A DNA stretch of 50,525 nucleotides from an uncultured Kiloniellales bacterium (GTDB lineage Bacteria; Pseudomonadota; Alphaproteobacteria; Kiloniellales; JAKSDN01): contig CAMYKD010000013.1 of NCBI GenBank assembly GCA_947258885.1, forward strand, positions 1 to 50,525, in the 5' to 3' direction. The translations under genes and the position numbers were made by a program. Under the pieces are notes generated by a model that worked only from the letters and a program-made list of their open reading frames with translations, ran no database searches and had not been told where the DNA came from. Numbering within the stretch: position 1 is the first letter of the stretch; the number at the start of each line of letters is the position of its first letter. Positions 10,166 to 37,417 of the stretch are shown piece by piece.

Positions 10166-11117
<952 letters not shown>

Positions 11118-18090: not shown

Positions 18091-18627
18091 ATGAAGGTCT
18101 TCGGACTGGCCGGTTGGAGCGGCAGCGGCAAGACGACGCTGGTCACCAAGTTGATTCCGGCGCTGGTGCGTCATGGCCTTTCCGTATCGACCCTGAAGCA
18201 CGCCCACCACGGCTTCGAGGTCGACACGCCGGGCAAGGACTCCTACGAGCACCGCGCGGCCGGCGCCACCGAGGTCATGGTCGCCTCGGCCCGGCGCTGG
18301 GCCCTCATGCGCGATCTGCGCGGCGAGCCGGAACCCACCGTGGCGGACTTGATGCGGCAAATGGCGCCGGTCGATCTCCTGCTGGTCGAGGGCTTCAAGC
18401 GCGAGATCTACGAGAAGCTGGAGGTCCACCGGCCCGCCCGGGGCAAGCCGCTTCTGTGCCACAACGACCCCAGGATCGTCGCCGTGGCGAGCGACGCACC
18501 CCTGCCCGGGCTGGACCTGCCGCAGCTCGACCTCAACGACGCCGAGGCGATTGCCACGTTCATCATTGCCCACTGCGGCCTCGAGGCCGCGGCGAACGGG
18601 CCGCCTGATACCGAAGGTCACGGATAA
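18091..18627 (+). CDS. mobB: Molybdopterin-guanine dinucleotide biosynthesis protein MobB
   Basis: The 178-residue GTP-binding protein assists MobA in attaching GMP to molybdopterin. The P-loop GWSGSGKT is at residues 8-15. STLKHAHHGFEVDTPGKDSY (about 31-50) with the conserved HHxFxxDxPGKDS is the family signature, and LLLVEGFKREIYEKLEVHR holds the Walker B-like region. GGGGAAG precedes the ATG. In related genomes mobB and moeA are commonly adjacent; here a 7.2 kb stretch containing a minus-strand signalling cluster separates them. Its stop is 11 bases from the convergent receiver-kinase gene. Confidence 0.96.
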   Translation: MKVFGLAGWSGSGKTTLVTKLIPALVRHGLSVSTLKHAHHGFEVDTPGKDSYEHRAAGATEVMVASARRWALMRDLRGEPEPTVADLMRQMAPVDLLLVEGFKREIYEKLEVHRPARGKPLLCHNDPRIVAVASDAPLPGLDLPQLDLNDAEAIATFIIAHCGLEAAANGPPDTEGHG

Positions 18628-18638
18628 CGACTTTGGTA

Positions 18639-19838
18639 TTACGCCGCGGGCGCCTCGACCGAGCCATCGGCGCCCTGCGCCCGGGGCAGGTAGAGCCGTA
18701 TCGTGGTGCCGCGGCCCTCTACGCTGTCGAGGGTGACCGTGCCGCCCGACTGCTTGGCGAAGCCGTAGACCACACTGAGCCCGAGCCCGGTCTTCTCGGC
18801 CAGACTCAGTCCCGAAAAGAATGGCTCGAAGGCCCGCTCCGCCACCTCCGGCGCCATCCCGGTCCCGGTATCGCTGAGCGTCAGCACGACATACTGGCCG
18901 GGCGACAAGTCGCGCTCCCGATTTTCCGAGGCGCCGGTCTCGTCGACGTTGGCGGCCGTGATGATCAGGTTTCCGCCCTCCGGCATGGCGTCGCCGGCGT
19001 TGCGCGCAATGTTGAGAAGCGCCAATTCGAGCTGCGCGGCGTCCACCGAAACCTGCCACAGGTCGCGCGACGTCACCACCTGGGTCTGCACCGCCTCGCC
19101 CAAGGCTTGGCGTAGATCGTCCTGTATTCCCGTCAGCACGGCGTTCAGGTCGACCGTCTTGGCACGCAGCACCTGGCGGCGGGTAAAGGTCACCAGGCTG
19201 TGGTTGATGTCCGCGGCGCGCTCGATCGCGCGCATCAGGCCGTCGGCCAAAGTCACCTGGTCCGGCACATCCTCCATGCGCACCTTCAGCCGCTCCACGT
19301 TGCCCAGCATGATCATCAGCAGGTTGTTGAGATGGTGCGCGACGCCGCCGGCAATCTGCGCCACGGCGGCCATTTTCCCCGCCTCGCGCAGGGCCTCTTC
19401 CGCCGCCTGCTTCTCCTGCTCCAGCCGCAGCAGCTCGAAGCAGCGATCCAGGGTGAGCAACAGCTCTTCCGTGTGCAGCGGCTTGCCGAAATAGTCGTAG
19501 ATGCCGTTGCGCAGCGCATTGACGACCGCATCCATGTCGCCGAAGGCCGTTGCCAGTATGCAGACGATCCCCGGCCGTCGTCGCTTGAGGGGGGCGACAA
19601 GGTCCACGCCGACGGTAGGGCCGAGCCGGTAATCCAGGATCGCGACCTGCGCGTCGAACTCCTCGATGGCCCGGCGGGCCTGCGCCGCGCTGAATACCAT
19701 TCGGGCCTCATAGCCCTCGAGCAGCAGATAATTATGCAAGCTCTCGGCGAAATCCCGGTCGTCGTCGACGATCAGGATGCGGCGCTTCGCGCCGGCATTC
19801 ACCCGCCTCGGCTCATCGGCAATCACGGTAGTTCCCAC
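18639..19838 (-). CDS. Receiver-histidine kinase hybrid (REC-HisKA-HATPase)
   Basis: The 399-residue soluble protein has an N-terminal receiver domain (about residues 19-137) with acidic pocket DDD at 25-27, phospho-acceptor D69 (ILDYRL) and K119 (GKPLH). A short coiled coil (139-157) leads to a kinase core. The H box is GGVAHHLNNLL with H168, the N box NIARNAGDAM, G1 SDTGTGMAP and G2 TGLGLSVVYGFAKQSGG. The start is a GTG at 19838 because GGAGGTG sits just before it, and it overlaps the upstream truncated kinase by 26 bases. It has no DNA-binding output. It ends the four-gene minus-strand cluster and resembles the hybrid at 36152-37417. Confidence 0.9.
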   Translation of the reverse strand: MGTTVIADEPRRVNAGAKRRILIVDDDRDFAESLHNYLLLEGYEARMVFSAAQARRAIEEFDAQVAILDYRLGPTVGVDLVAPLKRRRPGIVCILATAFGDMDAVVNALRNGIYDYFGKPLHTEELLLTLDRCFELLRLEQEKQAAEEALREAGKMAAVAQIAGGVAHHLNNLLMIMLGNVERLKVRMEDVPDQVTLADGLMRAIERAADINHSLVTFTRRQVLRAKTVDLNAVLTGIQDDLRQALGEAVQTQVVTSRDLWQVSVDAAQLELALLNIARNAGDAMPEGGNLIITAANVDETGASENRERDLSPGQYVVLTLSDTGTGMAPEVAERAFEPFFSGLSLAEKTGLGLSVVYGFAKQSGGTVTLDSVEGRGTTIRLYLPRAQGADGSVEAPAA

Positions 19839-20499
19839 TTGGCACCTCCAGTTTCGAGCGTATCGGCGCGGCCATCGGATCATCCTCGGCCAAGGCTCCG
19901 TCGAGCCGGCCCGAAGCGCCGGTCACCATGATTAAGACTCCCGTGCGGTCTCGCGAGTCCGCCCTCCGTGCTGCTCGACGATCTGCTTGACGAATCGCTC
20001 CCAGGGGGTTGCGCAACTCGTGGCTGACCGTGCCGGTCAACTGCCCGAGGGCGGCGAGCCGCTCCTTGCGCACCAGCGCCTCCTGGGCGGCGCGCAGCTC
20101 CGTCTCGACCTTTCTACGTTCCTCGACCTCCGTTCGAAGGTTCTCGATGACCCCTGCGACTTCTGGGAACAATGTCCCGGTAAGGAACAAGAGCCCCATG
20201 ACGATGGACGAAATTCCACCGAGCATGACCGGCCAGCTCCAGTTCAGATGCAAAGCCTCCATGGCCGCCATGGCGGTCGCTCCGGTTGTATGGAGCGGCA
20301 TGATGTGCATCGTATAGAAATCCATAGCGTATAGACAGGATATGAGAACTATCCCGCAGACAATAAAAACTATTGGCTTCAGTACATTGAGCTGCATTAT
20401 TACGACTCTGCATCGATATAAGCTCACAAGAACCGCCGCGGCTCCTAGAAGGATGACAACGTCTATGACTGTCATCGCGAGTATCGACCCCCAGATCAT
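19813..20499 (-). pseudogene. Truncated membrane histidine kinase, ATPase domain deleted
   Basis: The 228-residue frame has three predicted membrane helices (about 5-27, 38-60, 90-111), a coiled coil (120-145) and an intact H box LGQLTGTVSHELRNPLGAI with H160. It then breaks off: the next bases encode RQADRRAARRADSRDRT, an out-of-frame reading of the kinase C-terminal segment found in the neighbouring gene, and the N, G1 and G2 boxes are missing. Bases 19944-20100 align in three blocks to separated parts of the upstream kinase, marking two internal deletions. The membrane part is notably AT-richer than its surroundings. It might still give a stable stub able to dimerise, but cannot autophosphorylate by itself. 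Confidence 0.8.
19944..20100. repeat. Mosaic segment matching three separate blocks of the adjacent kinase gene
   Basis: Block A, 19944-19971, equals 20581-20608. Block B, 19966-19993, equals 20694-20721. Block C, 19994-20100, equals 21228-21334 with one mismatch. Blocks A and B overlap in CCGTGC, a 6-base microhomology at the junction; the B/C junction shows none. The segment is therefore a copy of a kinase 3' end with two interior deletions of about 80 and 500 bases. Confidence 0.85.
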
Positions 20500-20512
20500 G
20501 AAGATGCCTCCA

Positions 20513-23500
20513 TCAATCCGCGCCGATCCTTCGAACCGCCGTCGGCGGGGCCTCCGTCGCCGTCCGCGATGACGACTTCGTGCGGTCTCGCGAGTCCGCC
20601 CTCCGTGCCGATACCGGCACCGGCACCGGCAGGGGCAACCGGATCACGAAACGCGCGCCGGACCCGGCCCCGCCGTCGAGCTCGATCCCGCCACCGTGCT
20701 GCTCGACGATCTGCTTGACGATCGGCAGCCCGAGCCCGACGCCGAAGGCCTTGGAGCTGTACAGCGGCTCGAAGATCTTGTCGGCCTGATCGGAGGAAAT
20801 GCCGGGGCCGGTGTCGGCGATCGATATCTCCGCGCGCCCGTCCGTCCGACGCGTGGCGACGGTCAGGAGGTGCTCCTCGTTCTCCTGGACGACATCCCCT
20901 TCACCAGCCATGGCTTGGCACGCGTTGTCGAGCAGGTTGATCATCACCTGGCGCAGGCGGTTCCGGTCGAAGGCGAGTTTCGCCCCCGCCTCGAGGTCCC
21001 GGCGCAGCGTGATCCCCGGCGGAACCCGGTACTCGTCGAGCAGCCGCTCGAGCCAGCCGTCGACCGCCGTGGGCTCCAGCGCCAGGTTCCGGACCCGCGA
21101 AAAGTCGAGCAGGTCGCCGATGATGTTATCGCAGCGGGTGACGCTGTTGTCGACGATCTCGACCGACCGCTTGAGCATTGGGTCGCCGTCGCGCGACAGT
21201 TTCCGGATCGCCGCGAGCGAGGTGCGCATCGCTCCCAGGGGGTTGCGCAACTCGTGGCTGACCGTGCCGGTCAACTGCCCGAGGGCGGCGAGCCGCTCCT
21301 TGCGCACCAGCTCCTCCTGGGCGGCGCGCAGCTCGGCCGTGCGCGCTTCGACGCGCAGCTCGAGTTCCTCGTTGAACTTGCGGACCTCCCCCTCAATCCG
21401 CTTGCGCTCGGTAATGTCCTGCACCTGTACGATATAGCCCTCCAACCCGCCATCCGGATCGAGCATTGGAGCCACTCCGGCGAGACCCCAGCGCTCCTCG
21501 CCGGACTTGTGGCGGTAGCGCCGCTCGTGCATCGGGCTCACCGGCTTGCCGTCGAGCACGGACTGCCGGTGCTCGGCCGCCGCCTTAAGATCGTCCGGAT
21601 GGATGACCATGTCGAAGCGATTGCCGATCAGCGCGGAACTGGCGTAGCCCGTGAACTCGCAGTAGGCCGGATTGACCTGGAGAAAGCGGCCGTCGGTCGC
21701 CACCTGGGCCAAGCCGATCGCGCCCTTCTCGAACAGGCCCCGGAAGCGCTCTTCGCTGCGGCGTAGCGCGTCCTCCACAAGCTTGGTCTCGGTGATGTCC
21801 AGTAGCGTACCGGCCACACCGGTCGGCTCGCCGTCATCGTCGTAGGTGGCTTCGGATCGCTGATGGACGAACCTCACGGCCCCGTCCCCACGGACCACGC
21901 GGTGAATGACGTCCATGGGGATCCGATCTTCCAACCCGCGGCGCCAGACCTCGCGAACCCGCTCCCGGTCTTCGGAATGCACCATCTCCAGGAAATCCGT
22001 TACGGGCCTATTGAGTGCCTGCGGCTCGAGGCCGAAGATGCGGTAGGTCTCGTCCGAACAAGACAGATCGCCGGTCTTCGCGTCCCATTCCCAGTTGCCC
22101 AGCCGCGCGATACGCTGCGCGTTGGCCAGGCCCGCTTCGCTTTTGCGCAGCGCATCCTCGGCGCGCTTGGATTCGGTCACATCGTGGACCGCGCCACGGA
22201 TGCGAATGGGCTTGCCGGCCGGGTCGTAGTCCGGCTCCCCCAGGTCGTGGAGGGTCCGCTCCCCGCCGTCGGGCCGCACGATCCGGAAGGTCACATCGTA
22301 GGACCGACATGCCTCGAGCGCGGCACCGACCGCCGACAGCGCGGTCGAGCGGTCATCGGGATGCACAAGTTCGAGGAAGCCCTCGACGGTCGGCTCGAAC
22401 TCTTGGCTGCTCTGCCCGAAGATCCGGTAGGTTTCGTCGGACCAAGTTAGTTGGCCGCTCGCGAAATCCCATTCGTAACTTCCGAGACCCGCGATGCGTT
22501 GCGAACTGGCCAGGTTCGCTTCGCTGCGGCGCAGCGCCTCCTCCGCCCGCTTGCGCACGGTGAGGTCTTGTACCAACAGGATGAAATAGTCCGGGGTACC
22601 ATCTGGCAGACGCAAACACTGCACGGAAATGCTTGTATGGATGATTTCGCCGTTCTTCCGAACGAAGCGCTTATCCATCGAATAGGTATCGCGCTCACCA
22701 GCCATCGCCTCGTCGAACAACTGAAGATTCCTGGCGAGATCGTCCGGGTGAGTGAGGTCGGCCCAGGTACGATGCAACAGCTCCTCGCGGCTGTAGCCGA
22801 ATAGATCGCAAAGCTTGTCGTTGACCCGGACCCAGCGCTTGTCTGGTGTATATATCGCCGAGCCGACAAGTGGCAGATCGAAGTACCGGCGGAATCGTTC
22901 GTCCGTCGCTCTCTGTTCCGTTACGTCCTGGAGCGTGCCGATCTGCGACACGATCTCGCCGTTCCCGTCGAGCACGGATTCGCCAACTTCGCGGATGATG
23001 CGAACCTCTCCGTCGGGGCGAACGAGCCTGTATTCGACATCTATGTTCCGATTCCTCGCCGGGGGCGGACCGTAGGCCTGCAGGACCCGTTCCCTATCGT
23101 CCGGATGAACGTAGCGCTCGACGCGGGCCTCGTCCGCCAAGCCGCGCAGTTCATCGGGAGAGATGCCGATGACGGTCGACTCCTCGCCGGGCAGGATGCT
23201 CCGTTGGTTTTTCGGGTCCCAGACCCAATAGTCCAGTTTAGCGATCTTCTGCGCATGCCGAAGGTGGGTCAGGCTGTGCCGCAACGCCTGCTCCGACCTC
23301 TTGCGCTCGGTAATGTCCTGCAGCGATCCGAGGTATTCGACCGCTTGGCCGAAGGCATTCGGAACCGCTTCGCCGATTTCCTGGACATGGCGCACCTCGC
23401 CGTCCGGGCGGACGATACGGTACTCGATCTCGTAGTCGCACCCCTCTTCGTCGGCGCCTCTGAAGGCTTCGGTAACGCGATCGCGGTCCTCCGGATGGAC

Positions 23501-24400
23501 AACCCGTTCCATCTGCTGCTTCATGAGGGCGTGGATCTCGTCCGGGCCCACCCCATGGATTCGAGCATATTCCTCCGAGCAGGAAACGAGCTCGCTGCGT
23601 TCGATCGACCAGCGCCAGTTACCGACGTGGGCCAGCCGCTGCGCCTCGGCCAGCGCCACCTCGCTTTGACCCCGCAAGCTTTCGGCCCTTTCGCGCGTTT
23701 CGATCATCTCTCGGAAGGCCCGCCTGAGCGAGACGAGTTCCTGCCCCCCGGTGCGGAGCGCAAGGACCGAACTGTCGTCCAGGGCCTCGCCCCGGCCGTA
23801 GGTCGCCATGAGCTGCGCAAGCTCTTCGATGGGAGAGGTTATGCGCCGGCTCACAAGGATCCCGATCACACAGCCAACCAGCGCGATTCCCACGGTCATC
23901 AGAACGACGTACGCGAGGCTTCGGTCGAGCGTAGCGTGCAAGGCCGCTTCGCTGATGCCAACATGTAGGCGCGCTCTCGAGCCCCAAATCACGGGGCGGG
24001 CCGAGTGATGGATCGTCCCGCGGTCGGTCTTCAGATGAAAAAGGCCTCGGCCCTCGTCCGCCTCGTCGGTCAGCCGCAGGTCGAGCAGCGCGGCCGGGAA
24101 CCCTCCGGCGAAGGTATGGGCAAAAACGCGACCCGTGAAATCAACGAGGTAGATGTACTCGATGGCGGCGTCTCGGGCTTTGGCCTCCCACAAAGCGGCC
24201 TGCGCCGCGTCTTTGTCACCGGCGACGATGTAGCCCACATTGGTTTGGCTCAGCGCCTGGGTGATGGCCCGAAACCGCGCGTGGGATTCGCGGTCGAAGA
24301 TCTGGTCGAGCTGCCACCAGAGCCAGATCGATGCGACGAGGCCGAAGCTCAGCCCCATGGCCACGATCAGCAACAGGATCCTCGCGCGGACGGTGAGCAC
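20513..24400 (-). CDS. Membrane histidine kinase with six PAS domains
   Basis: The 1295-residue kinase starts at a GTG (24400) preceded by AAGGGGAA; the open frame runs further upstream but overlaps the previous gene. TM1 is 8-29, a periplasmic sensor about 30-160, TM2 161-183, HAMP about 184-240. Six PAS domains with PAC ends follow at about 255-370, 382-500, 503-620, 630-750, 757-878 and 883-1002. A coiled coil leads to the H box TVSHELRNPLGAMR (H1049), N box NLLDNACQAM, G1 DTGPGI and G2 GVGLGLP. It ends in a proline-valine run encoded by a CCGGCA repeat (20614-20631). It lies directly after the binding-protein gene, its likely sensor partner. The output target is unknown. Confidence 0.93.
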   Translation of the reverse strand: MLTVRARILLLIVAMGLSFGLVASIWLWWQLDQIFDRESHARFRAITQALSQTNVGYIVAGDKDAAQAALWEAKARDAAIEYIYLVDFTGRVFAHTFAGGFPAALLDLRLTDEADEGRGLFHLKTDRGTIHHSARPVIWGSRARLHVGISEAALHATLDRSLAYVVLMTVGIALVGCVIGILVSRRITSPIEELAQLMATYGRGEALDDSSVLALRTGGQELVSLRRAFREMIETRERAESLRGQSEVALAEAQRLAHVGNWRWSIERSELVSCSEEYARIHGVGPDEIHALMKQQMERVVHPEDRDRVTEAFRGADEEGCDYEIEYRIVRPDGEVRHVQEIGEAVPNAFGQAVEYLGSLQDITERKRSEQALRHSLTHLRHAQKIAKLDYWVWDPKNQRSILPGEESTVIGISPDELRGLADEARVERYVHPDDRERVLQAYGPPPARNRNIDVEYRLVRPDGEVRIIREVGESVLDGNGEIVSQIGTLQDVTEQRATDERFRRYFDLPLVGSAIYTPDKRWVRVNDKLCDLFGYSREELLHRTWADLTHPDDLARNLQLFDEAMAGERDTYSMDKRFVRKNGEIIHTSISVQCLRLPDGTPDYFILLVQDLTVRKRAEEALRRSEANLASSQRIAGLGSYEWDFASGQLTWSDETYRIFGQSSQEFEPTVEGFLELVHPDDRSTALSAVGAALEACRSYDVTFRIVRPDGGERTLHDLGEPDYDPAGKPIRIRGAVHDVTESKRAEDALRKSEAGLANAQRIARLGNWEWDAKTGDLSCSDETYRIFGLEPQALNRPVTDFLEMVHSEDRERVREVWRRGLEDRIPMDVIHRVVRGDGAVRFVHQRSEATYDDDGEPTGVAGTLLDITETKLVEDALRRSEERFRGLFEKGAIGLAQVATDGRFLQVNPAYCEFTGYASSALIGNRFDMVIHPDDLKAAAEHRQSVLDGKPVSPMHERRYRHKSGEERWGLAGVAPMLDPDGGLEGYIVQVQDITERKRIEGEVRKFNEELELRVEARTAELRAAQEELVRKERLAALGQLTGTVSHELRNPLGAMRTSLAAIRKLSRDGDPMLKRSVEIVDNSVTRCDNIIGDLLDFSRVRNLALEPTAVDGWLERLLDEYRVPPGITLRRDLEAGAKLAFDRNRLRQVMINLLDNACQAMAGEGDVVQENEEHLLTVATRRTDGRAEISIADTGPGISSDQADKIFEPLYSSKAFGVGLGLPIVKQIVEQHGGGIELDGGAGSGARFVIRLPLPVPVPVSARRADSRDRTKSSSRTATEAPPTAVRRIGAD
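21228..21334. repeat. Kinase H-box block shared with the truncated kinase
   Basis: This 107-base part of the six-PAS kinase gene, covering the coiled-coil end and the H box, is repeated at 19994-20100 with a single mismatch. Such near-identity in two adjacent genes implies a recent duplication or gene conversion. Confidence 0.85.
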
Positions 24401-24419
24401 GCTCTCGTTCCCCTTTCGC

Positions 24420-25388
24420 CTAGTCCAGTAAAGCGAGCCGGCGCATCGCTTCGCGCAGATCCCGGTAGTCGCCGTCCCGGGCCGCGATGAACCCGTTGGG
24501 CATCTCGGTGTTGTCCCAGTTGTAGAGCGAATCGCGCTCCCGCCCCTTGGGATCGAAGTCGAGTAGGGCTTGGCGCAGCCTGCCCAGGACCTCCGGTCGA
24601 AGCTTCGGGCTGGCGGCGATGCCGCTCGAGGGGTATTCCTTCGACACGAACAGAACCCTGACCTGACGCGCGGCCGCCAGGGCATGGCCCATGGTGTCCT
24701 GGATGGCGCAGGCCTCGAAGCGGCCCGATAGCAGGGCCTTGGCGCAGTTCCGGTGAGATCCGGTGAACTGGTAGCGCGCGAGGTCCTCCAGTTGGAGACC
24801 CTGCTCGAGCAGGCTGATACGGGGAATGATGTGTCCTTGGGTCGAATCGACGCTGCCCAAGGCGAGACGTTTGCCGCGCAGATCGGCGATCGATGCCAGC
24901 CGGCTATCGCTGGCCGTGATGATCAACGACCGATAGGTCGCCTTGCCGTCCCGGTTCAGGCCGCGAACGAGGGGAACGGCGCCGAATTCGTCGTGCGCCT
25001 TGATGTAGCTGACCGCGCCGACCGCGGCGAGGTCGACCACGCCTTCGCCGAGCTCCCGGAACAGTTCGCCGCCGCTCGACGTCAAGTGCAGTGCGAAGCG
25101 GTAGCCGGTCGCCTTCTCCAGATAGGCCAGGAAGGGCAGGTATTGTCGCGCGTCCTCCACGGGGCCGGCCCGCAAATCGAATCCGAACCTGAGCCATAGC
25201 GCGTCCGAGTCGTCTCGTCCCTCGCGCGTCAAGCTGATCCGCGCCAGTTCGCTTTCGCTGATACCGACGCTCAGATCCAGCACCTCCACACGGCCTTGGT
25301 ATCGGCTGAAGCCGAAGACGGCGGCGGCCGCGAGCACGACCGCAAGACCGGCGAGGACGGCGGCCATCACTGGCTTGGGTCGTCTCAT
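24420..25388 (-). CDS. PhnD-type periplasmic binding protein, kinase-associated
   Basis: The 322-residue protein has an N-terminal hydrophobic segment (8-26) that is a signal peptide or membrane anchor. The type II solute-binding fold of the phosphate/phosphite/phosphonate (PhnD) superfamily follows. Visible motifs are PFLAYLEKATGYRF, LGEGVVDLAAVGAVSYI, SIADLRGKRLALGSVDSTQGHIIPR and FTGSHRNCAKALLSGRFEACAIQDT. There are two cysteines in the last stretch. No ABC permease or ATPase gene is present, and the six-PAS kinase starts 19 bases downstream. By analogy with AioX, the arsenite-sensing partner of AioS, a ligand-sensing role is inferred. The ligand is not evident. Confidence 0.85.
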   Translation of the reverse strand: MRRPKPVMAAVLAGLAVVLAAAAVFGFSRYQGRVEVLDLSVGISESELARISLTREGRDDSDALWLRFGFDLRAGPVEDARQYLPFLAYLEKATGYRFALHLTSSGGELFRELGEGVVDLAAVGAVSYIKAHDEFGAVPLVRGLNRDGKATYRSLIITASDSRLASIADLRGKRLALGSVDSTQGHIIPRISLLEQGLQLEDLARYQFTGSHRNCAKALLSGRFEACAIQDTMGHALAAARQVRVLFVSKEYPSSGIAASPKLRPEVLGRLRQALLDFDPKGRERDSLYNWDNTEMPNGFIAARDGDYRDLREAMRRLALLD

Positions 25389-25887
25389 CCGGAATCACCC
25401 GTGCTCATGCGGGCCATGGCCCGAACCAGGGTCTGCCTCGAGCATCGTCCTTCAGTCTTCGTACCGTGCCCGCTGAAACGCCCGGCACCGATCGCATCGA
25501 CAAACGTCGACCGCTTGGCCGCGAGCCGGAAAGGCGGGAGCGCCCGCGTGTTCAGGTCATTTGCCCCTGCATCAATCATCTAATCGCATTCTATTACGAT
25601 TTATAATTTATTAACACTGGCAAACGAAAGACGAAAAGATCAGACCTGGGCCGGAGAACATGACCGCAGACGGACCCCCAGGGCATCTCTGGGCCCGCAA
25701 CTCGGGTGCCTGGTCTTGGACCGGCCGCTGTCGCCTCCTATCTGCAAGAGCCCCGGGACGTACCGCGCGCTCTTCAAAACGGGGCTGCGTCGACTTATGC
25801 TATGGTCCGGAGGACAACAGACGTGGTCCCGGGCAGGTCGAGGGCGCGGGACCCCGGGTGTTCTCTCATGAGCACAGAGGGTTATCC
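25389..25887. other. 499-base divergent region between sensor cluster and moeA
   Basis: An AT-rich core at about 25565-25640 is the probable promoter zone of the sensor cluster, giving it a leader of roughly 180-200 bases. A 64-codon frame on the minus strand (25385-25579) overlaps the binding-protein start as ATGA but has no ribosome binding site or recognisable product. Toward moeA, GGTCCCG (25825-25831) and CGGGACC (25847-25853) can form a 7-bp stem with a 15-base loop. TTCAAA and TATGCT (17 bases apart, near 25773-25801) could be a weak moeA promoter. Confidence 0.4.
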
Positions 25888-27144
25888 GTGGCGCAATTGA
25901 CCGACGACTGTTTCGCCCAGGGCGGCCGCCTGATGACCACGGCCGAGGCGCTGGCGCTGCTGGCCGAGAAGGTGGCGCCGGTCGCCGGCAGCGAGCGGGT
26001 CGCCCTGCACGACGGTCTCGGCCGCATCCTGGCCGAGACGGTGACCGCGGCGGCCGACGTGCCGGCGCACGACAACTCGGCGGTCGACGGCTATGCGGTC
26101 CATTTCGGCGAACTGGATCCCAAAAACGAGACCCGGCTGCCCGTGACCGGCCGGGCGGCCGCCGGCCACCCGCTCGGCCGGCCGGCGCGGCGCGGCGAGG
26201 CGATCCGCATCTTCACCGGCGCGCTCATGCCCGAGGGGCCGGACACGGTCATGATGCAGGAGGACTGCAGCCTCGAGGGCGAGACGGTGGTCATCCGGCC
26301 GGGCATCAAGCCGGGCGCCAACCGGCGCCGGCGCGGCGAGGATATCCATGCCGGCAGCGTGGTCCTGGAGCGGGGCCTGCGGCTGCGCCCCCAGGACCTC
26401 GGCCAGGCGGCGGCCGTCGGCCGCGGGGAACTCCTGGTCTCGCTGCCGCTGCGCGCCGCCCTGTTCTCGACCGGCGACGAGCTGCGCGAGCCGGGGGCGG
26501 CGCTCGAGCCGGGCTGCATCTACGATTCGAACCGCTACACCGTGGGCGGGCTGCTGCGCGGCCTGGGCTGCGCGGTGAGCGACCTGGGCATCCTGCCCGA
26601 CCGGCGGGCGGCGGTCGAAGAGGCCCTGGCCGCGGCGGCGCGCGACCACGACCTGATCGTCACCTCCGGCGGGGTCTCGGTCGGCGAGGAGGACCACGTC
26701 CGGCAGGTCGTCGAGACGCTGGGCCACCTGCACCTCTGGCGCCTGGCGGTCAAGCCCGGCCGGCCGATCGCCCTGGGGCAGGTCGGCCGGGTGCCCTTCG
26801 TGGGCCTGCCCGGCAATCCGGTCGCCGTCGTGGTCACCTTCCTCAACATCGTCCGGCCCATGATCCTCCGCCTCATGGGCGGGACGGACCTGACCCCCCA
26901 CCATTTCCGGGTCGCCGCCGCCTTCGACCACAGGAAGAAGAAGGACCGGCGCGAATGGCTGCGCGCACGCCTGGAGCGCGACGGCCAGGGCGGCTGGCGG
27001 GCCGTCAAGTTCCCGCGCGAGGGCGCCGGCATCCTGTCGTCGCTGGTCGAATCCGACGGCCTGGTCGAGCTGCCGGAGGGGCTGACCCATCTGGAGGCCG
27101 GCACCCTGGTCGACTTTCTGCCGTTCAGCGAGGTCTCGTCATGA
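25888..27144 (+). CDS. moeA: Molybdopterin molybdenumtransferase
   Basis: The 418-residue MoeA inserts molybdate into adenylated molybdopterin. Features are HDNSAVDGYAVHF near residue 65, the domain-III GDEL signature FSTGDELREPG, TSGGVSVGEEDHVRQVV around 260, and GLPGNPVAVVVTF. The start is a GTG at 25888 with AGAGGG seven bases before it. This gives the usual alphaproteobacterial beginning (V/M)AQLTDDCFAQGG; the longer open frame upstream is not MoeA-like. Its stop overlaps the moaD start (ATGA), so the two are translationally coupled. Confidence 0.96.
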   Translation: MAQLTDDCFAQGGRLMTTAEALALLAEKVAPVAGSERVALHDGLGRILAETVTAAADVPAHDNSAVDGYAVHFGELDPKNETRLPVTGRAAAGHPLGRPARRGEAIRIFTGALMPEGPDTVMMQEDCSLEGETVVIRPGIKPGANRRRRGEDIHAGSVVLERGLRLRPQDLGQAAAVGRGELLVSLPLRAALFSTGDELREPGAALEPGCIYDSNRYTVGGLLRGLGCAVSDLGILPDRRAAVEEALAAAARDHDLIVTSGGVSVGEEDHVRQVVETLGHLHLWRLAVKPGRPIALGQVGRVPFVGLPGNPVAVVVTFLNIVRPMILRLMGGTDLTPHHFRVAAAFDHRKKKDRREWLRARLERDGQGGWRAVKFPREGAGILSSLVESDGLVELPEGLTHLEAGTLVDFLPFSEVSS

Positions 27145-30083: not shown

Positions 30084-30770
<687 letters not shown>

Positions 30771-30783
30771 GGGATAGACTCGA

Positions 30784-32154
30784 ATGGCGGTGACCACGGC
30801 CCAGACGCCGCGCAAGCGTCCACGGATCAAGCGGGTCAAGCGGACCATGAATCGGTTCCTGCCGAGAACCCTTCTCGGGCGCTCGCTGCTGATCATCGTT
30901 TCCCCTCTGGTCCTGGTCCAGGTGATCGCCACCTGGGTCTTCTACGACCGCCACTACGACACGATCACCAAGCGGCTGGCCCAGGGCATCGCCGGCGACG
31001 TGTCCGCGGTGATCCGGATCATGGGCCCGGAACCGGACGCCAGTAGCCGCGCGGCGGCTCTGGACCTGGCTAGGCGCAGCCTATGGCTCGACATCGCCAT
31101 TCGCGACGATGCCAGGCTTCAGGCCGATCCGGCGCCCCCCGGTTGGGGCGTGCTGGACCGGAAGCTGACCAAGGCCTTGCGGGAACGCCTGCCCTACCCC
31201 TTCGTGATCGACACCGATGCGCCGGACGAGATGGTCCGGATCGATGTCCAGCTGCCGGTCGGCGTCCTCGCGGTCCGGGTTCCGCGCCAACGCTTGTTCA
31301 GCTCGACCACCTACATCTTCATCATGTGGATGGTCGGCAGTTCGATCGTCTTGTTCGGCGTGGCGACGATCTTCATGCGCAACCAGGTGCGGCCGATCCG
31401 GCGCCTGGCCCGGGCCGCCGACAGCTTCGGCAAGGGGCGCGACGTGCCGGACTTCAGGCCCGAGGGGGCAACCGAGGTGCGCCTGGCCGCCGCGGCCTTC
31501 CTGCAGATGCGCTCGCGCATCAAGCGGCAGATCGGACAGCGCACCGAGATGCTGGCCGGGGTCAGTCACGACCTGCGCACGCCGCTGACCCGCATGAAGC
31601 TACAGCTGGCCCTGCTGGGCGACAGCCCGGAGGTCGGCAACCTGGCCTCGGACGTCGCCGAGATGGAGAAGATGGTCGAAGGCTACCTGGCCTTCGCCCG
31701 GGGCGAGGGCGCCGAACAGCCGCTGCGGGCGAACCTGGGCGAGTTGCTGCGCGATATCGTGGCCCAGATGACGCGCGAGAAGGGCGGCAGCGTCGACCTG
31801 CACGTGGAGCAGACCTTGATCCTGCCGCTCAGGCCCGAGGCCATGCGCCGCTGCCTGGCCAACCTTGTCGGCAATGCCCAAGGCCACGCTGAGCATGTCA
31901 GGGTCAGCGCCGGCCGGCGCAAGAATATCGTCGAGGTCATGATCGACGACGACGGGCCCGGCATTCCCCAAGTGGAGCGCGAGGACGCCTTCAAGCCGTT
32001 CCACCGGCTCGACCGCTCGCGCAATCCGGATACCGGCGGCACCGGCCTGGGCCTGGCCATCGCCCGCGATATCGTGCGCAGCCACGGCGGCGACATCGCC
32101 CTCGAGGACGCCCCCGGCGGCGGCCTGCGCGCTCGGTTGTGGCTGCCGGTCTAG
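30784..32154 (+). CDS. EnvZ-type sensor histidine kinase
   Basis: The 456-residue membrane kinase has a basic N-terminus, TM1 (about 33-53), a periplasmic domain (54-172) with VRIDVQLPVGVLAVRVPRQRL near its end, TM2 (175-197) and HAMP (198-250). The kinase core has H262 in AGVSHDLRTPLTRMKLQL, which is the EnvZ/HisKA pattern, N box NLVGNAQGHA, G1 DDGPGIP and G2 TGLGLAIARDIVRSHGG. GAGGG ten bases upstream supports the ATG at 30784; a Met 22 codons on is an alternative. It pairs with the preceding response regulator, and this marR-ompR-envZ order is conserved in many alphaproteobacteria. Confidence 0.94.
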   Translation: MAVTTAQTPRKRPRIKRVKRTMNRFLPRTLLGRSLLIIVSPLVLVQVIATWVFYDRHYDTITKRLAQGIAGDVSAVIRIMGPEPDASSRAAALDLARRSLWLDIAIRDDARLQADPAPPGWGVLDRKLTKALRERLPYPFVIDTDAPDEMVRIDVQLPVGVLAVRVPRQRLFSSTTYIFIMWMVGSSIVLFGVATIFMRNQVRPIRRLARAADSFGKGRDVPDFRPEGATEVRLAAAAFLQMRSRIKRQIGQRTEMLAGVSHDLRTPLTRMKLQLALLGDSPEVGNLASDVAEMEKMVEGYLAFARGEGAEQPLRANLGELLRDIVAQMTREKGGSVDLHVEQTLILPLRPEAMRRCLANLVGNAQGHAEHVRVSAGRRKNIVEVMIDDDGPGIPQVEREDAFKPFHRLDRSRNPDTGGTGLGLAIARDIVRSHGGDIALEDAPGGGLRARLWLPV

Positions 32155-32483
32155 CCGGACCCGGGAAATTCGCCGGCGCAGCCTGCCGATCGTACATGCC
32201 GCAGCGGCAATTTGACTGAATCGGGCCGTTCAGCCAAGCCCGATATCTTAGCACTTTGTTTATGAACTAGTATTTTTTTCTTACGCCTTATTAACTACAT
32301 CACGGGATAATGAGGCCTCAGCGGCGAACGCCGCCGGAATCTGGCTGTGGTGCCTGCGCGAGCAAACCGTCGGGAGACAGCCCGGGTCGAAGGCTTTCTC
32401 CGTGAATCGTGTCGGCCATGGCGCACTGCCGTGAGCGGGATCCTGTTCGGCTTGTGCGCGGATTTGTTTGGGGAATGCAGAGC
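32155..32483. other. 329-base leader region of the second kinase operon
   Basis: After the EnvZ-type gene an AT-rich segment (about 32235-32310) probably holds the promoter of the kinase operon. Downstream, 32340-32420 can fold: GCAAACC (32362-32368) is followed by GTC-GGGA-GAC, a GNRA-type hairpin, and then CGGGTCGAAGGC. This faintly recalls the core of cyclic di-GMP-I (GEMM) riboswitches but lacks the full GGGACGCAAAGCC element. GGGGA about nine bases before 32484 is the ribosome binding site. Confidence 0.35.
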
Positions 32484-34229
32484 ATGAAGCTTGGAAGCAA
32501 GACCTTGCTGGTCCTGGCCGGCGTTCTGACATTTTCCGTGGCCTTGAATTTCGGGATCCTCCAGAACCTCGTTTTCCCCAGCTTCGTATCTTTGGAGGAA
32601 GAAGCCGCCGAGCAGAACCTCAATCGCGTCACGGACGCCCTAAAGGGCGAGTTCCGGTCTATGGCGGCGTTTGCCGCCGACTGGGCGCATCGGGACGACA
32701 CCTACGAATACGCCGGCGGCGAGAACGACTCCTTTGAGGAGGACAACCTCTATGTCGATTCTCTTTCGGCCATCAATGTGAGCTTCATGTACCTCTTCGA
32801 TTCGGCCGGAGAAATCCTCTGGTATGGGATCTTCGATCTGGAAACGGGCGATCCGTTGCCAAGCGACGGGTTCCTGCTCAACAACCTTTCCTCGACTCAT
32901 TACATCCTTCACCATCCGGACACGCAAAGCCTGCATACAGGCTTTGCGATCACCACACTGGGGCCGATCTTCTTTGCTTCGAGTCCCATACTTACGGGTG
33001 ACTCGGAAGGACCGAGCCGGGGCAGCTTCGTCATCGGCCGGTTCCTCGATAACTCCGAGCTCGCGCGGCTGCGCGAGCAGACCCACGTGGATTTCCAGAC
33101 CCGGCCGCTGGACGACGGCACGCTCCCGTCGAAGGAGCAGCAGACCGTTGCCTCGCTAAAGACCGCGGGCGACACGCTCGTCAGCGAGTTGGACGACAGC
33201 ACGCTTTCGGGTTACGCGCTGCTGCGCGAGGCCGGCGGCGTCCAGGCCCTCCTGCTCAGGGCGGATACGCCCAGGAAGATCACCGCGATCGGGCGGGAGA
33301 CCATCAACTACGCCCTGCTCTTCATGGTCATGGTTGGGCTGGTCGGCATGGTCGCCATGTGGCTGCTGCTGCGGAGCGTGGTCATTGGGCCCCTGTCCAG
33401 TCTCACGCAGAAGGTGCTCTCGATCGCAAAGGCGAAGGACCGCAGCCGGCGCCTCGCCCTGGACCGCAGCGACGAGATCGGCATTCTGGCGAAGGAGTTC
33501 GACGGCATGCTCGACGAGCTGCTCGAGACGGAGGGGCTGGCGGTCCTCGGCAAGATCACCGCGACGGTGAGCCACGAACTGCGCAACCCGCTGGGCGCGA
33601 TGCGCAACTCGGTCTTCGCCATCGCCGAAAGCACCCGCGGCAAGGGCTTGGGCATCGAGCGAGCGCTGGAGCGGGTCGACCGCAACATTCAGCGCTGCGA
33701 CGGCATCATCGGCGACCTGCTGGACTTCGCCGAGCAGCGCGAGCTGGACACAGCGGCTATCGCTATCGACAACTGGGTCGAGCAGATGCTCGACAGGCAG
33801 GACGTACCCGAGGGAATCACACTTTCCCGTTCCCTCGATGCACCCGGCGCGGAGGCGTTCGTGGACGCCGGGCAGCTCGCGTGTGTGATAGACAAGCTGG
33901 TCGATAACGCCTGCCAGGCGATCGCCGAGGCCGAGACCTCGGGTGACGAGGATGTCGCAACGGAGGTCCGGATCGAAACCCGGCTGGCCGGGGACCGGCT
34001 GGAGATCTCGGTGAGCGACGAGGGTCCCGGCATCCCGCCGGAGGTGCTGCCCAAGATCTTCGAGCCGCTGTTCAGCACCAAGGGCTTCGGCGTGGGCGTC
34101 GGCCTGCCGACGGCAAAGCGAATCATGGAGCTGCACGGCGGGGGCGTCGAGATCGCGAGCGCGCCGGGGCGCGGCACGCGGGCCCTCCTATGGCTGCCGC
34201 TCTGCGGCACGCAACAGGCCGCGGCTTAA
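32484..34229 (+). CDS. Membrane histidine kinase with CHASE4-like sensor
   Basis: The 581-residue kinase has TM1 (7-29) and a large periplasmic domain (about 35-270). The latter contains ADWAHRDDTYEYAGG and FLLNNLSSTHYILHHPDT, recalling CHASE4 sensors. TM2 (276-298) and HAMP (about 299-350) follow, then directly the kinase core without PAS. The H box is TVSHELRNPLGAMRNS (H364), N box LVDNACQAI (N474), G1 DEGPGIP and G2 FGVGVGLP. The H box closely matches that of the six-PAS kinase. The start at 32484 is chosen for ribosome-binding-site spacing; ATGs at 32475 and 32409 are alternatives. The next kinase starts 25 bases after the stop. Confidence 0.88.
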   Translation: MKLGSKTLLVLAGVLTFSVALNFGILQNLVFPSFVSLEEEAAEQNLNRVTDALKGEFRSMAAFAADWAHRDDTYEYAGGENDSFEEDNLYVDSLSAINVSFMYLFDSAGEILWYGIFDLETGDPLPSDGFLLNNLSSTHYILHHPDTQSLHTGFAITTLGPIFFASSPILTGDSEGPSRGSFVIGRFLDNSELARLREQTHVDFQTRPLDDGTLPSKEQQTVASLKTAGDTLVSELDDSTLSGYALLREAGGVQALLLRADTPRKITAIGRETINYALLFMVMVGLVGMVAMWLLLRSVVIGPLSSLTQKVLSIAKAKDRSRRLALDRSDEIGILAKEFDGMLDELLETEGLAVLGKITATVSHELRNPLGAMRNSVFAIAESTRGKGLGIERALERVDRNIQRCDGIIGDLLDFAEQRELDTAAIAIDNWVEQMLDRQDVPEGITLSRSLDAPGAEAFVDAGQLACVIDKLVDNACQAIAEAETSGDEDVATEVRIETRLAGDRLEISVSDEGPGIPPEVLPKIFEPLFSTKGFGVGVGLPTAKRIMELHGGGVEIASAPGRGTRALLWLPLCGTQQAAA

Positions 34230-34254
34230 GGCCGAAGACGGGGCGAGGCCAAGC

Positions 34255-35781
34255 GTGTTTCCGCTTCTCAGATACTTCTCGATTGCCAGCGCCGCCGCGC
34301 TGCTGACGGCGACTGCGATCGTGATGTGGCAGTACAACCACGGAATTAAGCACTATGCCGCGGACCAAAGCGAAGTCTCGAACTCCATACTGGGCAGATC
34401 GCTGACCAACGCGATCTGGCAGGAATTCGGCGCTCATCTGACGTCCTCGCCGGAGCTCAATCGCGAGGAACTGCGCACCCACCCCATGACACGGCGTCTC
34501 ACCGAAGTCATTGGCAGACAGATCGAAGGCCTGCCCGTCTCGAAGGTCAAGATCTACAACTCGGAAGGCCTCACCATGTTTTCCACCGATCAAGGTCAAA
34601 TCGGGGAGGACAAGAGCAAAAGCCCCGGCGTCGTCGCGGCGTTGTCTGGTGAGATCACAACCGAGTTGTCGCAGAAGGGTCGTGAGGGTGCATTTGGGCA
34701 CGCTTCGGAAACCACTGATATCGTCGCGACCTACTTGCCGATACGGAATTCCGAGGGTCATCCGGAAGCCGCTATCGAGTTTTATCGTGATGTGACACAC
34801 CTTATGGATGAAATCAGGAGCACTCAACTTACCGTCGGTGCAGTTGTATTTGTCGTATTTTGGTCGTTGTATATTGTGTTGTTCATTCTTATACGGCGCG
34901 CAGGCACCGTCTTGAAGACCCAGCACCAGGAAATTCTCGGCCAAAAAAAGGAACTGTCAGAGGAAATCCGGGAGCGGGTACGGGCCGAGGAAGCCCTGCG
35001 CAACCTGAACGACGATTTGGAGAAACGTGTCGCCGAAGGCTCGGACCAACTCCGCGCAACGCAAGAAGACTTGAGCCGCAAACAGCGCCTGGCGACCTTG
35101 GGACAGCTGATAGGCTCGGTCGGCCACGACTTGCGGAACCCCTTGGGAACAATCCGGAATTCGCTCGCCGCAATCGCGGTGCTGGCCGAGCAAGCGGGGC
35201 TGAACCTCAAGCGACCGCTAGAGCGGACCGAACGCAGCGTCCAGCGCTGCGAAAGCATCATCAGCGACCTGCTGGACCACACGCGCGTGCGGGACCTCCA
35301 ACTGGCCCCCACGGCCATCGACCCCTGGCTCGAGGCGGTTCTCGACGAGTTGACGCTGCCCGAGGGAATTGCGCTCCGCCGCGATCTGTCGGCCGACGGC
35401 ATGGCGGTGCCCCTGGACGCCGACCGCTTTCGCCGGGTCGTCGTCAATCTCTTCGACAACGCCTGTCAGGCCATGGCCGGGAACCAGGACGCCCCGGGCG
35501 GCGATCCGCGGCATCGCCTGACGGTGACCACGCGGACACTGGAAGAGCGGGTGGAAATCTCGTTCGACGATACCGGCGCCGGCATCCCGCCCGACCTGAT
35601 GTCGAAGATCTTCGAGCCCCTCTTCACGACCAAGACCGACGGCGTCGGCCTGGGCTTGCCCATGGTCAAGCAGATCGTTGATCAACATGGCGGCGAAATC
35701 GACATTGGCCGAAACGTCGGGGGCGGTGCCCGCATTACGCTGCAGCTGCCCCGTCATCAGGCCGGGGAGGAGGCCGCATGA
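34255..35781 (+). CDS. Membrane histidine kinase, second of the operon
   Basis: The 508-residue kinase starts at a GTG. TM1 is about 7-25, the periplasmic region 26-190, TM2 about 192-214, followed by a long coiled coil (225-275). The core has H291 in SVGHDLRNPLGTIRNS, N box NLFDNACQAM (N402), G1 DTGAGIP and G2 GVGLGLPMVKQIVDQHGG, very like the six-PAS kinase. The 5' part (34255-34930) is distinctly more AT-rich than the 3' part, suggesting that the sensor half has a different history. Its stop overlaps the start of the receiver gene (ATGA), so they are translationally coupled and likely partners. Confidence 0.9.
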   Translation: MFPLLRYFSIASAAALLTATAIVMWQYNHGIKHYAADQSEVSNSILGRSLTNAIWQEFGAHLTSSPELNREELRTHPMTRRLTEVIGRQIEGLPVSKVKIYNSEGLTMFSTDQGQIGEDKSKSPGVVAALSGEITTELSQKGREGAFGHASETTDIVATYLPIRNSEGHPEAAIEFYRDVTHLMDEIRSTQLTVGAVVFVVFWSLYIVLFILIRRAGTVLKTQHQEILGQKKELSEEIRERVRAEEALRNLNDDLEKRVAEGSDQLRATQEDLSRKQRLATLGQLIGSVGHDLRNPLGTIRNSLAAIAVLAEQAGLNLKRPLERTERSVQRCESIISDLLDHTRVRDLQLAPTAIDPWLEAVLDELTLPEGIALRRDLSADGMAVPLDADRFRRVVVNLFDNACQAMAGNQDAPGGDPRHRLTVTTRTLEERVEISFDDTGAGIPPDLMSKIFEPLFTTKTDGVGLGLPMVKQIVDQHGGEIDIGRNVGGGARITLQLPRHQAGEEAA

Positions 35782-36155
35782 CCGATCCGAGAAAAATGCT
35801 GATCGTCGACGACGACCCCGACATGGCCGAAAGCATTGCCGACCTCGTGGAGATACGGGGCTACGAAGCCGACCTCGCGTCTTCGGGGGCCGAGGCGATC
35901 GCCAAGTTCCAGGAGCGTGACTACGACATCGCCTTCATGGACGTGCGCATGCCGGGTATGAACGGCGTCGAATGCCTGTTGGAGATCCTCAAGCTCAAGC
36001 CCGATGCCAAGGTGGTGATGATGACCGCCTACAGCGTCGAGCAGCTATTGCGCACCGCGCTGAACAACGGCGCCGCCGGCGTCCTGTACAAGCCCTTCGA
36101 GATGGCTGAGTTCCTGGCGCTGTGCGGGAACGGCGGAGGGGCGGACACGTCATGA
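35778..36155 (+). CDS. Single-domain response regulator
   Basis: The 125-residue protein is only a receiver domain: DDDPD at residues 11-15, phospho-acceptor D55 in AFMDVRMPGMNG, T83 in MMTAYS, and K105 in LYKPFEMAEFL. It overlaps the preceding kinase and the following hybrid by four bases each, so the three are made together. With no output domain it probably acts as a phosphate shuttle or by protein contact. Confidence 0.94.
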   Translation: MTDPRKMLIVDDDPDMAESIADLVEIRGYEADLASSGAEAIAKFQERDYDIAFMDVRMPGMNGVECLLEILKLKPDAKVVMMTAYSVEQLLRTALNNGAAGVLYKPFEMAEFLALCGNGGGADTS

Positions 36156-37417
36156 CGATACCGCCGGAATCCGATGACCCCGGGGCGCTTTCGGACCGCT
36201 CGAACGACAGTCCGGCGCGGGCGGACGACGTGCCTGAGCTTCCGCAGCCGCAGTCCGATATGGACGACCAGCGCCGCGTATTGATCGTCGACGACGACGA
36301 GGACCTGGCCGAATCTCTGGCCGACCTCCTGGTCCCGCGCGGCTACCGTGTAGAAATCGCCGCCTCGGCCCACCAAGCCGGGGCCATCAGCCAGAGCTTC
36401 GACGTGCAGGTGGCGCTGCTCGATATCCGCCTCGGCCGCGACAGCGGCCTCGACGTCATCCAGATCCTGAAGCGGCGGAAGCCCGACGTGATCTGCGTCA
36501 TGGCCACGGGCTATGCCGAGACCGAGACGGCGATCGAAGCCCTTCGCTTGGGCGCCTACGACTATTTGCGAAAGCCGCTCCACCCGAGCGAGGTTTTCGC
36601 GGTCCTGGAGCGCAGCTTCGAGAAGATCCAGCTCGAGCAGAAGGCGAGAGCGGCCTTCGAGGCGATTCGGGCGGCAAAGGAAACCGCGGAACAGGCCGAC
36701 CGGACGAAGACCGAGTTCCTGGCCGCCATGAGCCACGAGCTGCGCACCCCGCTCCATTCGATCATCGGTTTCTCGGAGGTCCTGATAAGCCAGGCCTTCG
36801 GGGAGCTCGGCAACGAGAAGTATGTGGACTACGCCGGGAACATCCGGGAAAGCGGCATGCATCTTCTGGACGTCATCAACGACATCCTCGAGATCGCCAA
36901 GGCCGAGGCCGGCAAGCTCGAACTGCGCGAAGGCCTCGTCGACGTTTCCGACACCATCGCCACGACCCTGCGGCTGATCAAGCCGCAGGCCGAGGCCGCC
37001 AAGCTGGAGATCGAGAAGGCGATCGCGCCGGAGCTGCCCGCGTTCTACGGCGACGAGCAGAAGCTGAAACAGATCCTCCTCAACCTCTTGTCCAATGCCG
37101 TCAAGTTCACGCCGGACAACGGCAAGGTCAGGATCGCGGCCGAGCAGGACCAGGACGGGCAGATCATCATCTCCGTGCGGGATACCGGCATCGGCATGGC
37201 GCCCAAGGACATTCCCAAGGCCCTGGCGCCGTTCTCGCAGGTCGACAGCGACTTGAGCCGCGGCTATCCGGGGACCGGACTGGGACTTTCCCTGTCGGTC
37301 GTCATGATCGAGCTGCACGGCGGCACGCTGGCCGTCGAAAGCGAGGTCGGGAAGGGGACGACGGTGACCCTCCGGATCCCGGCGGAGCGCAGCTTCAAGA
37401 ATACGGACGCGGCCTGA
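36152..37417 (+). CDS. Receiver-histidine kinase hybrid (REC-HisKA-HATPase)
   Basis: The 421-residue soluble protein has a 40-residue acidic, proline-rich lead, a receiver domain (41-158) with D91 in LLDIRLGRDSG and K141 in LRKPLHPSEV, and a coiled coil (160-185). The kinase core follows with H195 in AAMSHELRTPLHSIIGF, N box NLLSNAVKFTPD, G1 DTGIGM and G2 GTGLGLSLSVVMIELHGG. The kinase half differs from that of the 18639-19838 hybrid (HELRTP versus AHHLNN), though the receiver halves are alike. It closes the operon and no DNA-binding output is present. Confidence 0.93.
   Translation: MTIPPESDDPGALSDRSNDSPARADDVPELPQPQSDMDDQRRVLIVDDDEDLAESLADLLVPRGYRVEIAASAHQAGAISQSFDVQVALLDIRLGRDSGLDVIQILKRRKPDVICVMATGYAETETAIEALRLGAYDYLRKPLHPSEVFAVLERSFEKIQLEQKARAAFEAIRAAKETAEQADRTKTEFLAAMSHELRTPLHSIIGFSEVLISQAFGELGNEKYVDYAGNIRESGMHLLDVINDILEIAKAEAGKLELREGLVDVSDTIATTLRLIKPQAEAAKLEIEKAIAPELPAFYGDEQKLKQILLNLLSNAVKFTPDNGKVRIAAEQDQDGQIIISVRDTGIGMAPKDIPKALAPFSQVDSDLSRGYPGTGLGLSLSVVMIELHGGTLAVESEVGKGTTVTLRIPAERSFKNTDAA

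Follow-up and report, generated by a model that had tools for sequence, protein, structure and literature searches.

A probable phosphorelay gene cluster between mobB and moeA of an uncultured Kiloniellales bacterium, with an extracytoplasmic input of another kind than in the closest relatives

We analyzed a 50,525-nucleotide stretch of contig CAMYKD010000013.1 from an uncultured Kiloniellales bacterium (the window), in which four genes located between mobB and moeA encode an extracytoplasmic binding protein (SBP) of the PhnD type (P0001), a multi-PAS sensor kinase (P0002), the remains of another kinase (P0003), and a receiver-kinase (P0004) (Table 1). These genes probably constitute a sensory phosphorelay with an extracytoplasmic input that differs in kind from the one found at the same locus in the closest relatives. 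The cluster is one of two allele types at the mobB-moeA locus. A first-pass annotation had described four adjacent minus-strand genes, and open reading frames (ORFs) together with Pfam matches confirmed all four at the positions given there.

The two sister genomes, G004 and G003, belong to the same genus, and their MobB proteins are 98 and 97% identical to that of the window, respectively. Both have the order uvrC-pgsA-mobB, receiver-kinase, multi-PAS kinase, and moeA-moaD-moaE in the same orientation as the window, where uvrC, pgsA, and mobB lie on one side and moeA, moaD, and moaE on the other, all on the strand opposite to the cluster. The flanks are 94.6 and 95.9% identical to the window at the DNA level in G004, and 92.3 and 93.7% in G003. 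Between mobB and moeA the sisters carry an ortholog of P0004 (92% identical in G004 and 90% in G003) and a multi-PAS kinase (1495 and 1598 amino acids). Fused to the start of each sister kinase is a family-3 solute-binding (Venus-flytrap) domain, SBP_bac_3 (PF00497, E 6e-24 and 2e-23), which Pfam did not find in P0002. Blast found no match to P0001 or to the N-terminal part of P0003 in the sister intervals, and no ortholog of P0001 was found elsewhere in the two sister drafts (best match 30–31%). Likewise, the sisters' flytrap domain had nothing beyond a 30% relative elsewhere in the genome of the window.

The boundaries of the difference could be read base by base. The stretch of the window that is unmatched in the sisters lies between a shared AT-rich upstream stretch (around position 25573) and the start of PAS1 (position 23668), and the sister kinases meet the PAS array exactly where P0002 does. 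The Cache-like segment of P0002 had no match in the sisters. The topologies differ as well: in the sisters the flytrap is part of the kinase, with one transmembrane segment, whereas the window has a separate SBP and a Cache-like domain with two transmembrane segments and a HAMP domain. The phosphate-passing DHp helices of P0002 are 92 and 95% identical to those of the sisters, and Pfam finds 6, 6, and 7 PAS_3 stretches in the window and the two sister kinases. PAS1-3 and PAS6 are 75–83% identical. PAS4 is 88% identical to G004 but 53% to G003, while PAS5 is 73% identical to G003 but 45% to G004, so the PAS array is itself a mosaic. Beside moeA the closest pair is G003 and G004 (97.7%, compared to 94.4 and 93.9%), and beside mobB it is the window and G004 (95.9%, compared to 93.3 and 94.0%). 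The alignments indicate that the input module was exchanged in place, in either direction.

Some observations weigh against this reading. All three genomes are draft assemblies (236, about 550, and about 640 contigs), and those of the sisters are estimated to be 96 and 91% complete. At the DNA level the P0002 kinase core reaches no more than 83–86% identity to the sisters; the CA domain is 61–66% identical, and more than the N-terminus may therefore have been exchanged. The stretch from the flytrap to PAS2 is 98.5–100% identical between the sisters (L088:8843-10642 compared to L089), against 92–98% nearby, and the identity drops to about 80% past it; the sensor segment was thus recently exchanged there too. 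The presence of the flytrap in both sisters does not mark it as the ancestral input, because their segment itself moved recently, and either input may have come first.

The first-pass annotation had P0003 as a truncated kinase, and it is better described as a decayed relic than as a purpose-made one. Its 3' half matches the 3' end of P0002 with 99% identity over 107 nucleotides (nt) and then 100% over 28 nt and 30 nt, and the two deletions in the copy sit at short shared words. Over 110 nt the copy is 98% identical to P0002 and 91–92% to the sisters, and therefore arose in this lineage or a closely neighbouring one. Pfam recognizes only 20 HisKA residues in P0003, below cut-off. The N-terminal part has a G+C content of 51.6%, compared to 63.5–72.8% in the other stretches measured. 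Whole-genome samples comprised 7 genomes of the family, 385 of the class, 398 of the phylum, 198 of the Nitrospirota, and 194 of the phylum of a Lentisphaerae genome; the samples overlap. Relatives of the N-terminal part were found in 3 of the 384 other class genomes, at the N-terminal end of larger open frames, and two of five such relatives have a kinase core in the flanking stretch. P0003 is a relic in which a foreign-looking membrane N-terminus precedes a copy of the same kinase core that has suffered deletions, and the N-terminal part looks like a third kind of input that had been attached to that core.

It is possible, as a more tentative proposal, that the mobB-moeA locus is a natural sensor socket into which unrelated inputs are repeatedly plugged by recombination at PAS1 or at the coiled-coil junction. 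The fixed parts would be the conserved upstream stretch on one side and the kinase core with the receiver-kinase on the other, and the three input types would be the sisters' fused flytrap, the cassette of PhnD-type protein and Cache domain in the window, and the membrane N-terminus of the relic. The same phosphorelay would then have been re-aimed at new signals within one genus.

A GTG at position 19838 (giving 399 amino acids) and the preceding GGAGG are kept in the two sister genomes, and this GTG is therefore the probable start of P0004. The protein has the layout of receiver-kinases of the LvrB/PakF kind, with a receiver and HisKA/HATPase_c but no sensor and no DNA-binding domain. Pfam identified Response_reg and HATPase_c, with HisKA below cut-off (19.5 against 26.9 bits), and P0004 does not reach the cut-off of the LvrB equivalog NF047466 (96.2 against 500 bits). 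Upon inspection the catalytic motifs of P0002 and of the P0004 receiver were intact. The H-box of P0004 reads GGVAHHLNNLL here and in both sisters; the Asn at position +4 is kept, and a His occupies the site that is acidic in HisKA kinases. Of the 21 different H-box contexts matched at the loci examined, the residue following the phosphorylated His was Glu in 16, Asp in three, and His in two, both of the latter from P0004. According to PMC3510030, the acidic residue is needed for kinase activity in HisKA proteins and a Thr or Asn at +4 for phosphatase activity. By this rule P0004 would be a poor kinase and a competent phosphatase, and we expect it to be phosphatase-biased and switched by its receiver.

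The broken P0003, and kinases that diverge faster than receivers both in this cluster and in a second one nearby, might mean that the locus is decaying, with a pathway on its way out and non-functional. We consider this rather unlikely, since the reading frames of P0001, P0002, and P0004 are unbroken and their catalytic motifs preserved, and P0004 is conserved at the level given above.

P0001 passes the gathering cut-off of PF12974 (188.8 against 27 bits) but not that of the NCBIfam PhnD equivalog (95.1 against 261.1 bits). Of the proteins with solved structures, the phosphite binder PtxB is nearest (E 3.4e-19 with a single sequence and 3.8e-35 with a profile), and ArrX and AioX are also among the closest solved relatives. 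According to PMC5908839, the AioX pocket consists of Tyr88, Cys106, Tyr131, Ser161, Ser163, His192, and Asp210. At these seven sites, in the same order, the alignment places Gly106, Gly124, Tyr152, Ser182, Gln184, His212, and Gln230 of P0001, so that three of seven residues (Tyr152, Ser182, and His212) are kept. As Tyr88, Cys106, Ser163, and Asp210 are replaced, P0001 is not a member of the AioX subfamily as delimited by those residues. Within the P0001 family, all 17 sequences aligned have Tyr152, Ser182, Gln184, and Asp231, and nearly all have His212 and Gln230. Our best guess for the ligand is a small oxyanion other than arsenite. The pocket is discussed from aligned residues only; a structure model of P0001 built from 4 sequences had a mean pLDDT of 51.8 and went unused, a point against the overall reading. 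That the cluster encodes a true AioX/ArrX-type arsenic-oxyanion sensor controlling an arsenic molybdoenzyme is improbable. The relatedness to ArrX and AioX speaks for it, as does a divergent Nitrospirota relative (L077, 32% identical to P0001) adjoining an ArrA-like enzyme (1104 bits, below the cut-off of 1600), but the four replaced pocket residues speak against it, and no molybdoenzyme gene adjoins the window cluster. Moreover, the oxidoreductases beside the nearer Nitrospirota orthologs (L066-L070) fit no NCBIfam equivalog, with PhsA (thiosulfate reductase) as the best match, far below cut-off.

We collected 22 loci with P0001 homologs: three from a contig scan with one query sequence, three from the class sample, and 16 from the Nitrospirota sample. 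L074, where the SBP gene is at the contig end, was left out of the count. In 20 of the 21 testable loci, derived from Alphaproteobacteria, Nitrospirota, and Lentisphaerae, the SBP gene is followed by a same-strand gene matching the N-terminal domain of P0002, with L079 as the exception. The linked SBPs are close homologs in 17 of the 20 loci (36–50% identity over the aligned length) and divergent in L076-L078. The gene-order search proposed with the first-pass annotation thus found the linkage to be conserved, so that the refuting outcome named there, a lack of such linkage to kinases, did not come about. The partner need not be a full kinase, since that of L009 and L011 is a 323-amino acid protein without a kinase domain in Pfam, and that of L043 has a HisKA just under cut-off and no HATPase_c. 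In L009 and L011 (both 9948-10919) this partner combines the Cache-like domain with a Cys-rich tail (ICSSCKKV...CPDC). A receiver-kinase also adjoins the SBP-kinase pair in L043 and L010.

A phmmer comparison of all ORFs of the 50.5-kb window to the phnC-like ATPase encoded in this genome found no ABC ATPase. The absence of a transporter partner noted in the first-pass annotation holds within this search, which covered the ATPase but not permease profiles. From the lack of a nearby ATPase and the linkage across three phyla, P0001 is very probably a sensor subunit, as that annotation had proposed. Its gene adjoins a kinase with its own extracytoplasmic domain in a conserved linkage, and the assignment of P0001 and P0002 as a binding-protein-dependent sensor pair of the LuxPQ/AioXS kind is well supported by these comparisons; contact between the two would be expected to control the kinase. 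The ABC-less setting is typical of this genome, as six of its eight strong PF12974 places adjoin a kinase; one adjoins an ABC ATPase and one (contig C35) neither, by the queries used. A binding protein on contig C15 was considered as a kinase fusion but is a separate reading frame adjoining a kinase. On contig C23 of G000 (L036:6300-10135) one kinase is located between two same-strand PhnD-type binding proteins, and a related pair is found in G004. P0001 could instead serve an unlinked ABC transporter and lie beside a kinase by chance or co-regulation, as the named members of PF12974 include transport proteins, the best solved relative PtxB belongs to phosphite transport, and an SBP-ATPase pair on contig C119 of the genome could be shared with P0001. 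This is very improbable given the linkage to a membrane sensor, the lack of an ABC ATPase in the window, the low score for the PhnD equivalog, and a lipobox-like N-terminus in several Nitrospirota orthologs, which suggests that those orthologs are tethered.

The N-terminal region of P0002 is extracytoplasmic and has no Pfam name. P0002 starts at a GTG 20 nt from the SBP stop; the longest ORF reaches 24685 but overlaps the SBP gene. Besides the kinase domains, Pfam finds PAS_3 with six stretches and a HAMP domain exactly at cut-off (25.0 bits). A model of residues 1-245 has an extracytoplasmic PAS/Cache fold that resembles WalK (Z 12.2, root-mean-square deviation 3.0, 126 aligned), CitA (Z 11.6, 2.4, 96 aligned), and LuxQ (Z 9.5), with weaker Foldseek matches; it was built from 4 sequences with a mean pLDDT of 70, and Z can be inflated for long helices, which tells against the assignment. 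There was no Pfam match to sCache_3_2 (PF17203) in P0002, and relatives in L010, L065, and L043 scored 19.7–21.3 bits, under the cut-off of 28.4. As a control, a profile of the Cache-like domain was searched in 372 class genomes, of which 106 matched at 1e-10, many in the HAMP half only. An SBP adjoined the domain in 10 of 21 loci checked (of 30 returned), window included; the Cache-like domain is therefore often, not always, a binding-protein partner.

Orthologs of P0001 were found in 3 of the 384 other class genomes, in none of the 397 other phylum genomes, and in none of the six other family genomes (best match 31%). In the Nitrospirota sample 12 of 198 genomes had homologs of at least 41% identity and four more had homologs of 32–34%, and in the phylum of the Lentisphaerae genome the only ortholog among 194 genomes was that of the Lentisphaerae genome itself. 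Relatives on plasmids were only 28–33% identical. The rare and scattered occurrence suggests horizontal spread. Ordinary vertical divergence, by which one ancestral sensor changed beyond recognition, is scarcely credible: both inputs are of the broad periplasmic-binding-protein world and the domain of the sisters has a sub-threshold PF12974 match, but the flanks are 92–96% identical while the input has no blast match, the topologies differ, and P0001 is 45–56% identical to proteins of distant families and phyla.

For the phosphorelay with an exchanged input we propose that loaded P0001, probably carrying a small oxyanion, docks on the Cache-like domain of P0002 and that docking would alter kinase activity through HAMP and the PAS stack. 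As the DHp helices are almost unchanged, the P0004 receiver is presumably still the target of P0002, as it would have been for the ancestral kinase, and P0004 may then control a regulator encoded elsewhere.

In LuxP-LuxQ a sugar-type binding protein (LuxP) is paired with a hybrid kinase that has tandem PAS domains (LuxQ). The window cluster resembles this pair in having a separate SBP that would act through an extracytoplasmic domain of the PAS/Cache type in the kinase, but differs in having a PhnD-type protein and one Cache-like unit. BvgS-type kinases have fused Venus-flytrap domains. The sister alleles resemble them with their fused SBP_bac_3 input and PAS domains, whereas the window allele has a separate SBP. 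Polymorphic quorum-sensing receptors (for example ComP of Bacillus) likewise have a kinase input that varies among close relatives at one locus, but there the receptor domains are homologous and diverge together with their peptide, whereas here two unrelated modules alternate. Like AioX-AioS-AioR and ArrX/ArxX, as described in PMC5908839, the window cluster has a PF12974-type SBP gene beside a sensor kinase and no transporter, and its Nitrospirota relatives share the sigma-54-type regulator. It differs from those systems in the four changed pocket residues, the six PAS domains, the receiver-kinase, and the lack of an arsenic enzyme and a DNA-binding regulator, so that the X-S-R order is not found in it. 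The likeness to AioX-AioS drawn in the first-pass annotation is thus apt for the mode of action and for the relatives, which often have the X-S-R order, but not for the AioX pocket residues. P0004 resembles LvrB of the LvrA-LvrB pair (Leptospira) and PakF (Sphingomonas), as described in PMC5863495, in lacking a sensor and a DNA-binding domain and in adjoining a kinase, and differs from LvrB in the low score for its model and in the His that replaces the acidic H-box residue. LvrA phosphorylates LvrB, which provides a precedent for transfer from a kinase to a receiver-kinase (PMC5863495).

That kinase inputs evolve by domain shuffling is generally accepted (for example PMC8895600). Most such cases are deduced from comparisons of distant paralogs, and in the open-access literature we found neither this locus nor an in-place exchange of a flytrap for a PhnD-type input; what is new is the alternation of unrelated inputs among close relatives at one locus. 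The states before and after are found at one locus in one genus, between nearly identical flanks and with the phosphate-passing helices left alone, and would be a natural example of a signalling pathway rewired to a new signal. Since both states occupy one locus, it can be tested directly whether the same core obeys fused and separate inputs. The analysis also defines an SBP/Cache sensor pair in at least three phyla, with frequent molybdoenzyme neighbours in Nitrospirota.

Table 1. Features of the mobB-moeA locus and its surroundings, with positions in the window.
Feature	Position	Strand	Basis or remark
PhnD-type (PF12974) extracytoplasmic binding protein P0001 (SBP), 322 aa	24420..25388	-	Pfam E 1.4e-55
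Sensor kinase P0002, 1295 aa: membrane Cache-like domain, HAMP, six PAS, HisKA, HATPase_c	20513..24400	-	
Six-PAS array of P0002, residues 245-1005	21386..23668	-	Pfam; per-domain identity to sisters
HisKA (1040-1104) and HATPase_c (1145-1258) of P0002	20627..21283	-	Pfam
Relic kinase ORF P0003, 228 aa	19813..20499	-	
Foreign-looking membrane N-terminal part of P0003	20101..20499	-	51.6% G+C
Collinear copy of P0002 3' end in P0003, two internal deletions	19942..20100	-	20100-19994, 19993-19966, 19971-19942
Receiver-HisKA-HATPase_c protein P0004	18639..19838 (longest ORF to 19883)	-	Pfam; start moved
Stretch unmatched in sisters: SBP, Cache-like domain, HAMP	23669..25573	-	blastn boundaries, base-level alignment
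mobB, flanking gene	18091..18627	+	PF03205 E 6.7e-51
moeA, flanking gene	25660..27144	+	Matches in the sisters start at residue 32; the true start is probably internal
Second related cluster: CHASE4 kinase, another kinase, single receiver (35778-36155), and receiver-kinase	32409..37417	+	
OmpR-like pair	30084-32154		

The first-pass annotation held that the final output is missing locally. This is correct for the window, but an NtrC-like regulator also follows in 13 of the 17 testable Nitrospirota loci (not in L009, L011, L064, and L079), as checked by Pfam in one locus (L065). Molybdoenzyme-operon genes were present in the flanking stretch examined at 8 of 18 Nitrospirota loci (L009, L011, and L064-L079). 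In L066, L067, L068, L069, and L070 the trio of SBP, Cache kinase, and NtrC adjoins genes for a molybdopterin oxidoreductase, an Fe-S protein, and a chaperone. FmdE-like and MoeA-like genes are located just upstream of the sensor trio in L065 (3997-6096) and L069 (8123-10605), the latter with a ModE-like helix-turn-helix gene. A close relative of the Nitrospirota enzyme had no match in the genome of the window at 1e-30, but the search included no positive genome, and its empty result carries no weight. The mobB-moeA site was not used to link the window cluster to molybdenum, as sister alleles without a PhnD protein occupy the same place. In other genera mobB directly adjoins moeA in three of four genomes, and G006 has an unrelated 491-amino acid ORF between them.

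A second related cluster about 7 kb away and an OmpR-like pair in the same window had been overlooked earlier. The kinase cores of the second cluster are 48 and 54% identical to that of P0002, and its receiver-kinase aligns to P0004 in 385 columns at 33.5% identity. In G003 the receiver of this cluster is 96% and the receiver-kinase 91% identical, compared to 81 and 65% for the kinases, and inputs appear to change faster than relay parts in this cluster too. The OmpR-like pair is kept in another genus (74 and 64% identity) and is probably a system of its own.

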